DNA of 64,000 nucleotides, from assembly GCF_003987045.1 (NCBI RefSeq), contig NZ_PIPZ01000001.1:806001-870000 (forward strand). Direction: 5' to 3'. The translations under genes and the position numbers were made by a program. The stretch comes from Pseudidiomarina marina (GTDB lineage: Bacteria > Pseudomonadota > Gammaproteobacteria > Enterobacterales > Alteromonadaceae). Positions 44,022 through 46,712 of this stretch are shown piece by piece. Under the pieces are notes generated by a model that did no database searches, was not told where the DNA came from, and saw only the letters and a list, made by a program, of their open reading frames with translations. Every line of letters starts with the position of its first letter. Within the stretch, counting starts at the first letter, position 1.

Positions 44022-44417
44022 TCAGGCAGTTGTTTGTTGCGGATTACCTGTTGTCGCAGCAAGATCATTGAGTAACCCCAATAAGCGTTGCGCTTCGACA
44101 GGTTTTGGCAAGCACAAGTTAGCACCGGCTTTGTCTGCCAGCGGTTGAACTTGCGCAGCGTCTTGTGTGGTCATCAAAATAATTGGCGTCTGTTGGTAGT
44201 GTTTCGACTGACGCAGATTTTTTATGAGCGCCAAGCCGTCCATTAATGGCATCTTGTGATCCACCAACACCACATCAAAATGCTGACTTTTAGAACGGTT
44301 TAAGCCGTCGAGGCCATCATTGGCACAGCTTACCGTAAACGGGCTTTGCTCAATAATCTGTAGCAATTGCTCCCGTGTCGCTGGTTTATCCTCAACCAGC
44401 AATAATTGAAGTGACAT
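44022..44417 (-). CDS. Receiver-only response regulator
   Basis: A 131-residue CheY-like receiver without an output domain. The acidic pair is Glu9-Asp10, the phosphoacceptor is Asp53 in DVVLVDHKMPLMDG, the switch Thr is in ILMTTQD near 83, and the Lys is in LPKPVEA at 105. It acts by phosphorylation-dependent protein contact. No histidine kinase is nearby, so its partner is unknown. It lies eight bases upstream of apt and downstream of the hvf cluster. Confidence 0.87.
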   Translation of the reverse strand: MSLQLLLVEDKPATREQLLQIIEQSPFTVSCANDGLDGLNRSKSQHFDVVLVDHKMPLMDGLALIKNLRQSKHYQQTPIILMTTQDAAQVQPLADKAGANLCLPKPVEAQRLLGLLNDLAATTGNPQQTTA

Positions 44418-44441: not shown

Positions 44442-44567
44442 TTACGCTGAAAAGAACTTATACCAGGACAAAACCGCCGGTAACACTGGTACTGCAAGAA
44501 ATACAATTACTGCAAGCCAGCCCATTTTTACGCCCGATTCATCTCGGAAGTTTTCATTATGCGCCAT
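44442..44567 (-). CDS. 41-residue single-helix membrane protein next to the hvf genes
   Basis: The frame encodes 41 residues: a polar start MAHNENFRDESGVKMG and one hydrophobic helix at about residues 17-35, ending WYKFFSA. GAGG lies about ten bases before the ATG. It is 44 bases downstream of hvfC on the same strand and 24 bases before the response regulator. The location suggests a last gene of the oxazolin operon, but a stand-alone small membrane protein is equally possible. I recognise no family. Confidence 0.65.
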   Translation of the reverse strand: MAHNENFRDESGVKMGWLAVIVFLAVPVLPAVLSWYKFFSA

Positions 44568-44611
44568 AAAATACATCCTCACTGACTAAAATTTGCGGTG
44601 CGGATCATACT

Positions 44612-45373
44612 TTAATTGCTGCTTGGGAACAACATGGCTCTTTGATAGAGTTCAGGAACCGTTGCGAGTAAGCCTTGATATAGTTGTTCCTTTGTAAACT
44701 GTGGCAGCTGACTCGATAAATAGTCAGCGGCTTCCGCCAAGGTGCTCGAAGAACACTGCAATAAGTAATCCACAAACAACATTGTAACCGCATTGAGTTG
44801 CAGAAATTTGACGTTAGATTCCAAATTTCCGTTCTGCATCTGATCAACCCGATAAACGGCTAAGTAGCATGGCTGATTGAGCGGTTCATTTGGTGTAACA
44901 TCAGGTTGAATAGTATGTACTGGGTAGTCGAATGCATGCCACTGTAACGACGGATTAACTTGCCAACCTGATGCGTCTAATGCGACGTGTAGGGGCGGCT
45001 GAAAACATGCTGAATCATAGTGATATACTTCAAGTTCCATACGCTCGTACAAAGCAAGTTGGTAACTCCATTCTGGTAACCACGAGGCTTCATAAATTGC
45101 CAAAAATTCGGTGAATTCTGCACCGATTTCGGAAAATAATGGTGATTTAGAATGATGTTGAGCGATAAAAGATTGAAGAATCTCTCGCTCTTGTTCATTT
45201 GTAAACGTACTAAATAAAACTGGAAAGCCGCGAGTTATAAAACTCTCAATATTGTTATGAACCAAGCGTTGATATACTTTCAATCGGCGAGCCTCACCTT
45301 GTGGTGGTTCTGCCTGAAAAGGATCACGTAACCATCGTGACCATTGCTCCTGAATCCGTCGAAACTCACTCAT
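44612..45373 (-). CDS. hvfC: HvfC-type partner protein (DUF2063)
   Basis: A 253-residue DUF2063 protein. Its N-terminal helical domain has RLKVYQRLVHNNIESFITRGFP near 30-51, the usual signature; a second domain follows from about 140. In the published oxazolin and bufferin pathways this partner works with the DUF692 enzyme, recruiting the precursor peptide for modification. Its ATG overlaps the hvfB stop by four bases, indicating coupled translation. Confidence 0.88.
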   Translation of the reverse strand: MSEFRRIQEQWSRWLRDPFQAEPPQGEARRLKVYQRLVHNNIESFITRGFPVLFSTFTNEQEREILQSFIAQHHSKSPLFSEIGAEFTEFLAIYEASWLPEWSYQLALYERMELEVYHYDSACFQPPLHVALDASGWQVNPSLQWHAFDYPVHTIQPDVTPNEPLNQPCYLAVYRVDQMQNGNLESNVKFLQLNAVTMLFVDYLLQCSSSTLAEAADYLSSQLPQFTKEQLYQGLLATVPELYQRAMLFPSSN

Positions 45374-46197
45374 ACAAATTCTGTTTGTTGGGTTACTTTT
45401 TTCACGGCCTGCATTTCATCAAGCAACTCAGCCAACGGTGGAATATTAAAATCTCGCTCAAGTAGCACTGGGAACGGGCCATGATGCTGGTAGCTTACTT
45501 CCAGCAAATCAAAGACTTCCGGCCGAATCGGAGCGCCATGCGTATCAATTAATAGGTCTTCGGCTTCTTCGAAATGACCTGCAATATGGCCATAATTAAC
45601 TTTCTCTGAGGGGAGGCCTTTGATAAAGGCGACAGGATCGTAACCGTGATTGACGCTATTGACGAATACATTATTCACATCAAGTAGCAACTCACAATTT
45701 GATGTTGTTAAAACCTGATTTATAAACTCAAGTTCGCTCAGTTCAGTCGCAGCAGGCAAGTAATATGATACATTTTCTAATATGAGCGGTCTCTCAATTA
45801 GCTCCTGCACGCGCTTAACTCGCTGTGCCACATATTCTGCAGCTTCTTCGCTAAAAGGGATAGGTAAAAGATCATAAAGATGGCCACCCGCCGAACAATA
45901 GCTTAAATGTTCGCTATATCGCTCAATGTTAAAGCGCTCTAGAAAATCTTTAACCTTTAAAATAAAAGCTTCATCGAGTGGGTCAGGGCTACCAATCGAT
46001 AACGAAAGGCCATGACAAAATAGAGGATATCTTTCACGTAGCAGATCAAGCTGGTACGTCGCTTCATAGCCACGTTCAATCCAGTTTTCTGGAGCTATCT
46101 CCCAAAAATCAACGACGGGATTCTTCTGCAAAACGTCAGACAAGAACTCCCGTCGTAATCCTAATCCAACTAGGCGCCGCACTTCCCTTCGCCGCAT
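45370..46197 (-). CDS. hvfB: HvfB-type multinuclear non-heme iron oxidase (DUF692)
   Basis: A 275-residue DUF692/MNIO enzyme with a TIM-barrel fold. Conserved iron-ligand segments are visible: CHGLSLSIGSPD near 61, YSEHLSYC near 98, LILENVSYYLP near 137, LLLDVNNVFVNSVNHGYD near 168, GHIAGHFEE near 198 and VLLERDFNIP near 250. MNIO enzymes of this branch convert cysteines of EGKCG motifs to thiooxazole-type groups. The ATG lies inside the last codons of hvfA (28-base overlap), so the modifying enzyme is translated in step with its substrate. Confidence 0.9.
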   Translation of the reverse strand: MRRREVRRLVGLGLRREFLSDVLQKNPVVDFWEIAPENWIERGYEATYQLDLLRERYPLFCHGLSLSIGSPDPLDEAFILKVKDFLERFNIERYSEHLSYCSAGGHLYDLLPIPFSEEAAEYVAQRVKRVQELIERPLILENVSYYLPAATELSELEFINQVLTTSNCELLLDVNNVFVNSVNHGYDPVAFIKGLPSEKVNYGHIAGHFEEAEDLLIDTHGAPIRPEVFDLLEVSYQHHGPFPVLLERDFNIPPLAELLDEMQAVKKVTQQTEFV

Positions 46198-46595
46198 TTA
46201 CCTTCACCACATTTGCCTTCTTTGGCTTTTTCATTCATGCGTTCTTTGGCTTTGTCGTCCATTTTTTCCATGGCTTTATCGCCACCGCATTTGCCTTCGC
46301 CGCACTTCCCTTCGCCACATTTACCTTCTTTGTGTTTTTCGGCGTGTTCTTTGGCTTTATCACCACCACACTTACCTTCACCACATTTACCTTCGCCACA
46401 CTTCCCTTCTTTGGCTTTCTTGGCATCTTTCTTACCACCACAACGCATTTCTTGTTGCTGTTGCTGTTGTTGCTCTTGCTGATAGCCACCTGGTAACTCG
46501 GTAAAACCAAATGGATTTGCTGACGCTGTTACACCGGCTGCACCGACTAATAATGCACCTACGGCTACCGAAACTGACTTTTTCATCGCTTTCAT
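46170..46595 (-). CDS. hvfA: HvfA-type oxazolin precursor peptide with nine EGKCG motifs
   Basis: A 141-residue precursor: signal peptide to about residue 26 (cleavage after TASA), a short spacer with a seven-Gln run, Cys52, then three clusters each of three EGKCG motifs (cysteines at 66, 71, 76; 93, 98, 103; 129, 134, 139) separated by Lys/Glu-rich helices. Published work on Haemophilus HvfA and bufferins shows such motifs are modified by the DUF692 enzyme and bind copper. AGAGGAAC precedes the ATG. The operon order hvfA-hvfB-hvfC is standard; a DoxX-type hvfD is not seen here. Confidence 0.9.
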   Translation of the reverse strand: MKAMKKSVSVAVGALLVGAAGVTASANPFGFTELPGGYQQEQQQQQQQEMRCGGKKDAKKAKEGKCGEGKCGEGKCGGDKAKEHAEKHKEGKCGEGKCGEGKCGGDKAMEKMDDKAKERMNEKAKEGKCGEGKCGEGKCGA

Positions 46596-46687: not shown

Positions 46688-46712
46688 AACCCCGCTAGAC
46701 AGCGGGGTTTTA
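46688..46712 (-). terminator. Terminator of the tonB2/TPR operon
   Basis: A nine-base-pair GC-rich stem, AACCCCGCT (46688-46696) with AGCGGGGTT (46701-46709), around a four-base loop. On the minus strand TTCTTTGTTT follows. It lies just past the TPR gene stop and upstream of hvfA, keeping the two units apart. Confidence 0.78.

Follow-up and report, generated by a model that had tools for sequence, protein, structure and literature searches.

About 2,000 precursor peptides of the Buf_EGKCG, or oxazolin, type have been described; they span 31 to 506 residues with up to 58 cysteines, they mostly occur with differing combinations of MNIO, DUF2063, and DoxX genes, and one of them, HvfA, is modified far less well when it lacks its signal peptide (PMC12452194, PMC13419390, PMC12668002, PMC12538549, and PMC12636315 taken together). 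In nontypeable Haemophilus influenzae, the oxazolin system HvfABC consists of a precursor with a Sec signal and EGKCG motifs, the MNIO protein HvfB, and the DUF2063/RRE protein HvfC. The HvfA precursor is reported to hold six cysteines, distributed over three AEGKCGEGKCG motifs, and the DoxX-like HvfX is encoded in its operon (PMC13419390). Fontiphorin (FonABC) of Fontimonas thermophila also has EGKCG repeats; its fragments were reported to lose 8, 12, and 8 H, corresponding to doublets and a triplet, and the product was assigned seven 5-thiooxazoles (PMC12668002). The marine gammaproteobacterium Microbulbifer has MmrABC (bulbicupramide), a three-gene operon whose precursor is described as having a conserved leader, three cassettes, and 5 to 8 cysteines in cassettes of two (PMC12538549); the term DoxX has no match in the main text of that paper. 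Bufferins (BufABC) have MNIO plus DUF2063 maturation, a Sec signal, a copper role, and other precursor families.

We analyzed a 64,000-nucleotide stretch of the Pseudidiomarina marina genome (the window) that contains an operon of this kind. Three overlapping open frames, hvfA-hvfB-hvfC, were read on the minus strand with the precursor gene first, as listed in Table 1. With the first ATG taken as the start of hvfB, the hvfA and hvfB frames overlapped by 28 nt, and with GTG codon 6 they overlapped by 13 nt; hvfB and hvfC overlapped in the sequence ATGA. In Pfam, the MNIO protein matched PF05114 with 340 bits, and the hvfC product matched DUF2063 with 64 bits and NGO1945_C with 54 bits; the preliminary description had correctly placed overlapping DUF692 and DUF2063 genes behind the precursor. 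Its filing of the operon as Hvf or oxazolin type was borne out by curated NCBIfam models that scored above their cut-offs, namely the HvfB family NF003818 (400.3 bits versus 360), the HvfC family NF050145, for the partner of PME type 1 (198.5 bits versus 142), and the HvfA repeat domain NF050137 in the precursor (50.6 bits versus 19.5). The precursor fell below the cut-off of the HvfA equivalog NF050188 (33.2 versus 95 bits). It had no match in Pfam and was therefore not DUF2282. A literature search of titles and abstract openings found no publication on this operon in Pseudidiomarina, and the name Pseudidiomarina has no match in the main text of PMC12452194.

Table 1. Features of the hvf operon and adjoining genes in the window
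Feature	Position	Strand	Details and basis
hvfA-type precursor	46170..46595	-	141 aa; NF050137 match, motif positions
hvfB, MNIO-family maturase	45370..46197	-	275 aa; PF05114, NF003818
hvfC, DUF2063 + NGO1945_C/RRE partner	44612..45373	-	253 aa; Pfam, NF050145
NPFGFTELPGGY box	46482..46517	-	Directly after expected signal-peptidase site
EGKCG triplet 1	46365..46409	-	Residues 63-77
EGKCG triplet 2	46284..46328	-	Residues 90-104
EGKCG triplet 3	46176..46220	-	Residues 126-140
Terminator-like hairpin	46688..46709	-	Between upstream TPR gene and hvfA
Small membrane ORF (smORF)	44442..44567	-	41 aa; outside hvf system; conserved neighbour of response regulator/apt/dnaX
Single-domain response regulator (RR)	44022..44417	-	Outside hvf system; neighbour even where hvf is absent

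The precursor was made up, in order, of a putative signal peptide, the NPFGFTELPGGYQ leader box, a Q-rich stretch, MRCGG, and three EGKCG triplets. Its N-terminus, read by eye, had KK, a hydrophobic core, and an ASA site, which together resemble a Sec-type signal peptide of about residues 1 to 26. The nine EGKCG motifs that had been noted earlier were present (starting at residues 63, 68, and 73; 90, 95, and 100; and 126, 131, and 136), and a tenth cysteine, passed over in the preliminary description, was C52, within MRCGG. The triplets were not evenly spaced, as had been claimed; their starts were 27 and 36 residues apart, leaving spacers of 12 and 21 residues. Pairwise identity of the triplets at the DNA level was 36 to 38 of 45 bases, and the differences were synonymous because all of the triplets encode EGKCG. 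A degenerate 14-nt EGKCG pattern had nine matches in the whole 2.41-Mb genome, all of them inside hvfA, and the reversed pattern, used as a control, had none. An antisense open frame of 172 codons (window 45978-46496, plus strand) spanned the repeat gene and was probably a by-product of repeat composition.

Comparison with known hvf and buf clusters, which had been proposed as a check, placed the locus as an ordinary oxazolin/Buf_EGKCG member. The window precursor has nine cysteines in triplets, whereas H. influenzae HvfA has six and MmrA groups its cysteines in twos; fontiphorin likewise differs in repeat number and layout. Unlike the H. influenzae operon, the window operon has no DoxX gene, and unlike bufferin maturases, its MNIO protein scored below the cut-off of the BufB class NF050167 (274.8 versus 310 bits). 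The operon is thus a real, conserved, and ordinary member of the published family, also called captophorins. By sequence, the best solved relatives of HvfB and HvfC were 3bww (E 2.1e-71) and 3dee (E 1.1e-5), respectively. The window HvfB retained the His, Asp, Asn, and Glu residues that are the same in at least 98% of 80 aligned rows (window included), among them N175, D218, and H220. Judged by position, and allowing for about 24 extra residues inserted in the longer 3bww, these three should correspond to the H. influenzae HvfB residues N175, D242, and H244, replacement of which is reported to abolish activity (PMC13419390).

The best explanation of the gene content, order, overlap, and family membership that we observed, together with the conserved residues and the conservation in the genus described below, is that this captophorin RiPP operon of a Pseudidiomarina species very probably makes a Cu(I)-binding thiooxazole peptide. 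The chemistry, the order of steps, the copper binding, and a protective role would be those of its relatives. Specifically, HvfC would use its RRE domain to hold the precursor leader, made up of the signal peptide and probably also of the NPFxxxxLxxGY box next to it, and, still in the cytoplasm, HvfB would oxidise the cysteine of each EGKCG to 5-thiooxazole. Export by the Sec system and removal of the signal peptide would follow, leaving a mature peptide of about 115 aa that would bind Cu(I), whether in the periplasm or beyond it, with copper buffering as its most likely role. The triplets might form three metal-binding units, as the preliminary description suggested, but the number and grouping of repeats vary among relatives, and in one paper stochastic copper binding by EGKCG products is suspected (PMC12668002). 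Even when copper was added, the Microbulbifer EGKCG operon reportedly went undetected in the proteome (PMC12538549), and therefore a role in copper stress is not assured.

By analogy with the EGKCG peptides HvfA, FonA, MmrA, and NedA, for which a loss of 4 Da per modified cysteine is reported (PMC13419390, PMC12668002, PMC12538549, PMC12636315), we infer thiooxazole chemistry for the window peptide. The modification could instead be the oxazolone-thioamide of the original oxazolin assignment, which survives in the names that NCBIfam keeps for NF050137 and NF050188 and in a table in PMC12452194. However, two later reports reassigned the HvfBC products as 5-thiooxazoles (PMC12668002, PMC13419390), and the older structure is extremely unlikely here. 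Reported UV maxima are 302 to 305 nm for 5-thiooxazole versus 340/394 nm for methanobactins (PMC12538549).

The nearest named relatives of the window were Pseudidiomarina species and two Idiomarina-labelled assemblies. Among the 25 other Pseudidiomarina genomes, 22 had a PF05114 match, and the MNIO frame was open in all 22. A readable precursor, with 6 to 10 KCG motifs as counted by reading, adjoined hvfB in 19 of these 22 genomes. Two of the remaining three (G001 and G016) reached a contig edge at that point, and in the third (G021) the precursor was found at C5:30635 and hvfBC at C5:1797311. In G021, the precursor (L224:3120-3629) had moved off, and hvfBC stayed at the usual locus without it (L049). 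The layout of three triplets plus MRCG was common to the window, P. tainanensis (L131), and Idiomarina sp. 34-48-12 (L130), and repeat number and grouping drifted among relatives. Triplets as such were not confined to the genus, since they also occurred in L157, L188, L222, and L225.

The hvfA gene is under purifying selection, with dN/dS values of 0.02 to 0.11 against three close species. The hvfB gene and especially hvfC were more diverged than their neighbours, with synonymous sites saturated. Against P. tainanensis, amino acid identity was 82% for HvfB and 68% for HvfC, compared with 91 to 96% for the TPR, RR, and apt products. This divergence (window 44612-46197) may stem from weak codon bias or from recombinational replacement.

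The operon occupied one place in the genus, between the TPR gene and the smORF-RR pair. As read in 20 genus loci, the usual order was ExbD-TonB-TPR-hvfA-hvfB-hvfC-smORF-RR-apt-dnaX; the exceptions were L049 (G021), with no precursor there, and L037 and L043, with no apt hit separating RR from dnaX; L084 and L098, read in a further set of loci, likewise had none. Three genus genomes had no MNIO gene (L082, L083, and L084); in these, the TPR gene was followed directly by the smORF, RR, and dnaX, with apt between the last two in two of them. Outside the genus, hvfABC was also located upstream of apt and dnaX in G029, G030, and G034.

These neighbourhoods also bear on whether the peptide might be a secreted copper-uptake chalkophore, similar to methanobactin, rather than a copper buffer. 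The Sec-type signal, small size, and related copper chemistry would fit uptake, but no receptor or protease gene was located between the TPR gene and dnaX, and the upstream TonB-type cluster remained in the three genus genomes without hvf. A chalkophore is unlikely, and copper buffering is the reading that we retain.

The preliminary description had also counted an extra small membrane protein directly downstream. The ORF exists, and its membership in the system was contradicted by synteny. It was present in 25 of 25 genus relatives, including the three without the operon, and in six further genomes among 59 searched, several of which, in other genera, had it upstream of apt. In L033 and L035, it was below the threshold of the neighbourhood script, yet it was detected by the separate smORF search. 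Since the smORF stays where hvf is absent and lies upstream of apt elsewhere, it was rejected as an operon member and assigned to the RR/apt/dnaX neighbourhood. It had no Pfam or NCBIfam match and appeared, in several genera, as a conserved single-TM protein with a response regulator and apt close by.

The absence of hvfD, as noted previously, was correct: inspection of the locus showed no DoxX/hvfD(X) gene, and PF07681 had 0 matches in the genome. Eleven of 26 genus genomes had a DoxX match, on another contig or far from hvf. A missing DoxX gene at the hvf locus is therefore common in the genus and not distinctive. The terminator-like hairpin between the TPR gene and hvfA suggests that hvfA may start its own transcript. 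A similar GC-rich hairpin with a T run was seen by eye in 15 of 16 upstream stretches, and terminator-like sites in the region numbered 8 versus 4.7 expected. A generic promoter pattern scan gave promoter-like sites at chance level (8 found versus 8.4 expected).

Next to the signal peptide, the NPFGFTELPGGYQ box of the window fits the class of precursors that are linked to HvfB. Of the 87 distinct linked precursors that were counted, 86 carried the pattern [LMI]..GY; this sample favours the clade of the window because its 80 named loci were chosen by likeness to the window HvfB (51 to 85% identity). The box-less exception was L209; L201, another linked precursor, carried the box as NPFAMKELSSGY. 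L190 was masked and set aside, and nine of the 80 named loci, having no precursor in the first reading, were uncounted. On re-inspection, two of these (L184 and L207) had a precursor with the box and only two cysteines. Two others (L137 and L183) were cut by a contig end, L142 was the genome with the moved precursor, and in L148, L156, L192, and L194 another gene preceded hvfB. The gene in these last four loci, from Methylophaga, encodes a protein of about 255 to 280 aa with LLCGCPITKDG directly before the HvfB relative (L148:3131-3907, L156:977-1741, L192, and L194). Two of the proteins were scanned and had no Pfam match; they are possibly another MNIO substrate.

Among 19 precursors read without an adjacent HvfB, the box was found in one, L224 of G021, whose HvfBC is encoded elsewhere in the genome. 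The other 18, from 17 orphan genomes, had no [LMI]..GY before the first repeat; the shuffled background for the box was 0.017. A tblastn search with the window HvfB found none in the loci of these 18 precursors. On the dnaX tree, the maturase state switched only twice independently, and the association between box and maturase thus rests on two events, too few for significance. The pair test on this tree took both traits as already read from the loci and so merely repeats that association. The box was also absent from all eight precursors of family f8 that had HvfB alongside. The f8 HvfB proteins were 43 to 45% identical to that of the window; the family is probably, as a guess, Pasteurellaceae, and its precursors, which lack NPF..L..GY, are probably the nearest kin of H. 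influenzae HvfA. We ruled out L..GY as a universal HvfBC recognition element, given the f8 precursors, L209, and an alanine scan of FonA in which no single essential residue was reported ahead of the core (PMC12668002). At most, the box is a marker whose use is limited to a clade, and within this clade NPFGFTELPGGY is a candidate element for recognition by HvfBC.

Order-wide, in 394 genomes including that of the window, the repeat family was present in 110 and a PF05114 match in 219. Comparison of the two lists by hand gave nine of the 110 repeat-family genomes without a PF05114 match, and adding G028 and G033 brought the number of genomes with a KCG-repeat precursor and no PF05114 match to 11, some of them assembled in one or few contigs (G105 and G397) and others fragmented (G379 and G388). 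Seven of the 11 belonged to the family of the window, and six of these seven had the precursor beside apt. In six more genomes (G026, G032, G166, G266, G333, and G422), the precursor lay away from any MNIO gene, with none seen beside it. Six MNIOs were read, two in G026, three in G032, and one of two in G333; each adjoined a Cys-rich gene without EGKCG repeats. Four of these neighbours were tested in Pfam (one was DUF2282, and three had no match), and the two MNIOs that were scored were both of the BufB class. In the 11 orphan genomes of the window's family, with the MNIO absent or elsewhere, the precursor was beside apt and/or TPR in nine, flanked by both in five (G033, G192, G226, G266, and G387), and beside neither in G179 and G032. 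Many of the precursors from genomes without PF05114 (L086:4986-5471, L085:4193-4636, and L210-L219), which in the window's family were mostly beside apt, shared an alternative stretch after NPF, often V/I-x-T-I/V, in place of L..GY. Genomes with a precursor and no MNIO genes have been noted before, in 67 of 2,583 cases (PMC12452194).

These orphans raise the question of whether the window peptide itself acts as an unmodified Cys-rich metal-binding protein, with hvfBC decayed or serving another target. The 11 genomes without PF05114, in particular the six of seven family members beside apt, and the divergence of hvfB and hvfC relative to their neighbours would agree with this. On the other hand, the conserved residues of the window HvfB are intact, the MNIO frame is open in every genus relative with a match, and the L..GY box of the window peptide is missing from the orphan peptides. 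An unmodified peptide is very unlikely in the window, and a thiooxazole peptide remains our preferred reading.

For the repeat peptides as a group, we propose tentatively, and as less likely than not, that they may exist in two states. One would be committed to HvfBC and marked outside f8 by L..GY; the other would be box-less and HvfB-less, with a function independent of thiooxazoles, such as plain thiolate metal binding. The HvfB-less state would have lasted across several genera, and often in an unchanged chromosomal slot.

Pseudidiomarina is one more host of a widespread copper-peptide pathway, with a nine-cysteine layout whose copper load would be measurable. The mildly new aspect is that relatives keep a similar peptide, often in the same spot, without the modifying enzymes. 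Because KCG-repeat precursors are kept where no MNIO match is found, the repeats alone are no proof of modification, and repeat-based annotation may overcall modified RiPPs; three orphans that were tested all carry the NCBIfam label of an HvfA-family modified RiPP. If the two-state proposal is true, the curated annotation of orphans as modified RiPP metallophores would be wrong, and the box would mark modified peptides in this clade. The HvfB-less lineages that keep a KCG-repeat peptide offer a natural setting in which to see what modification contributes.
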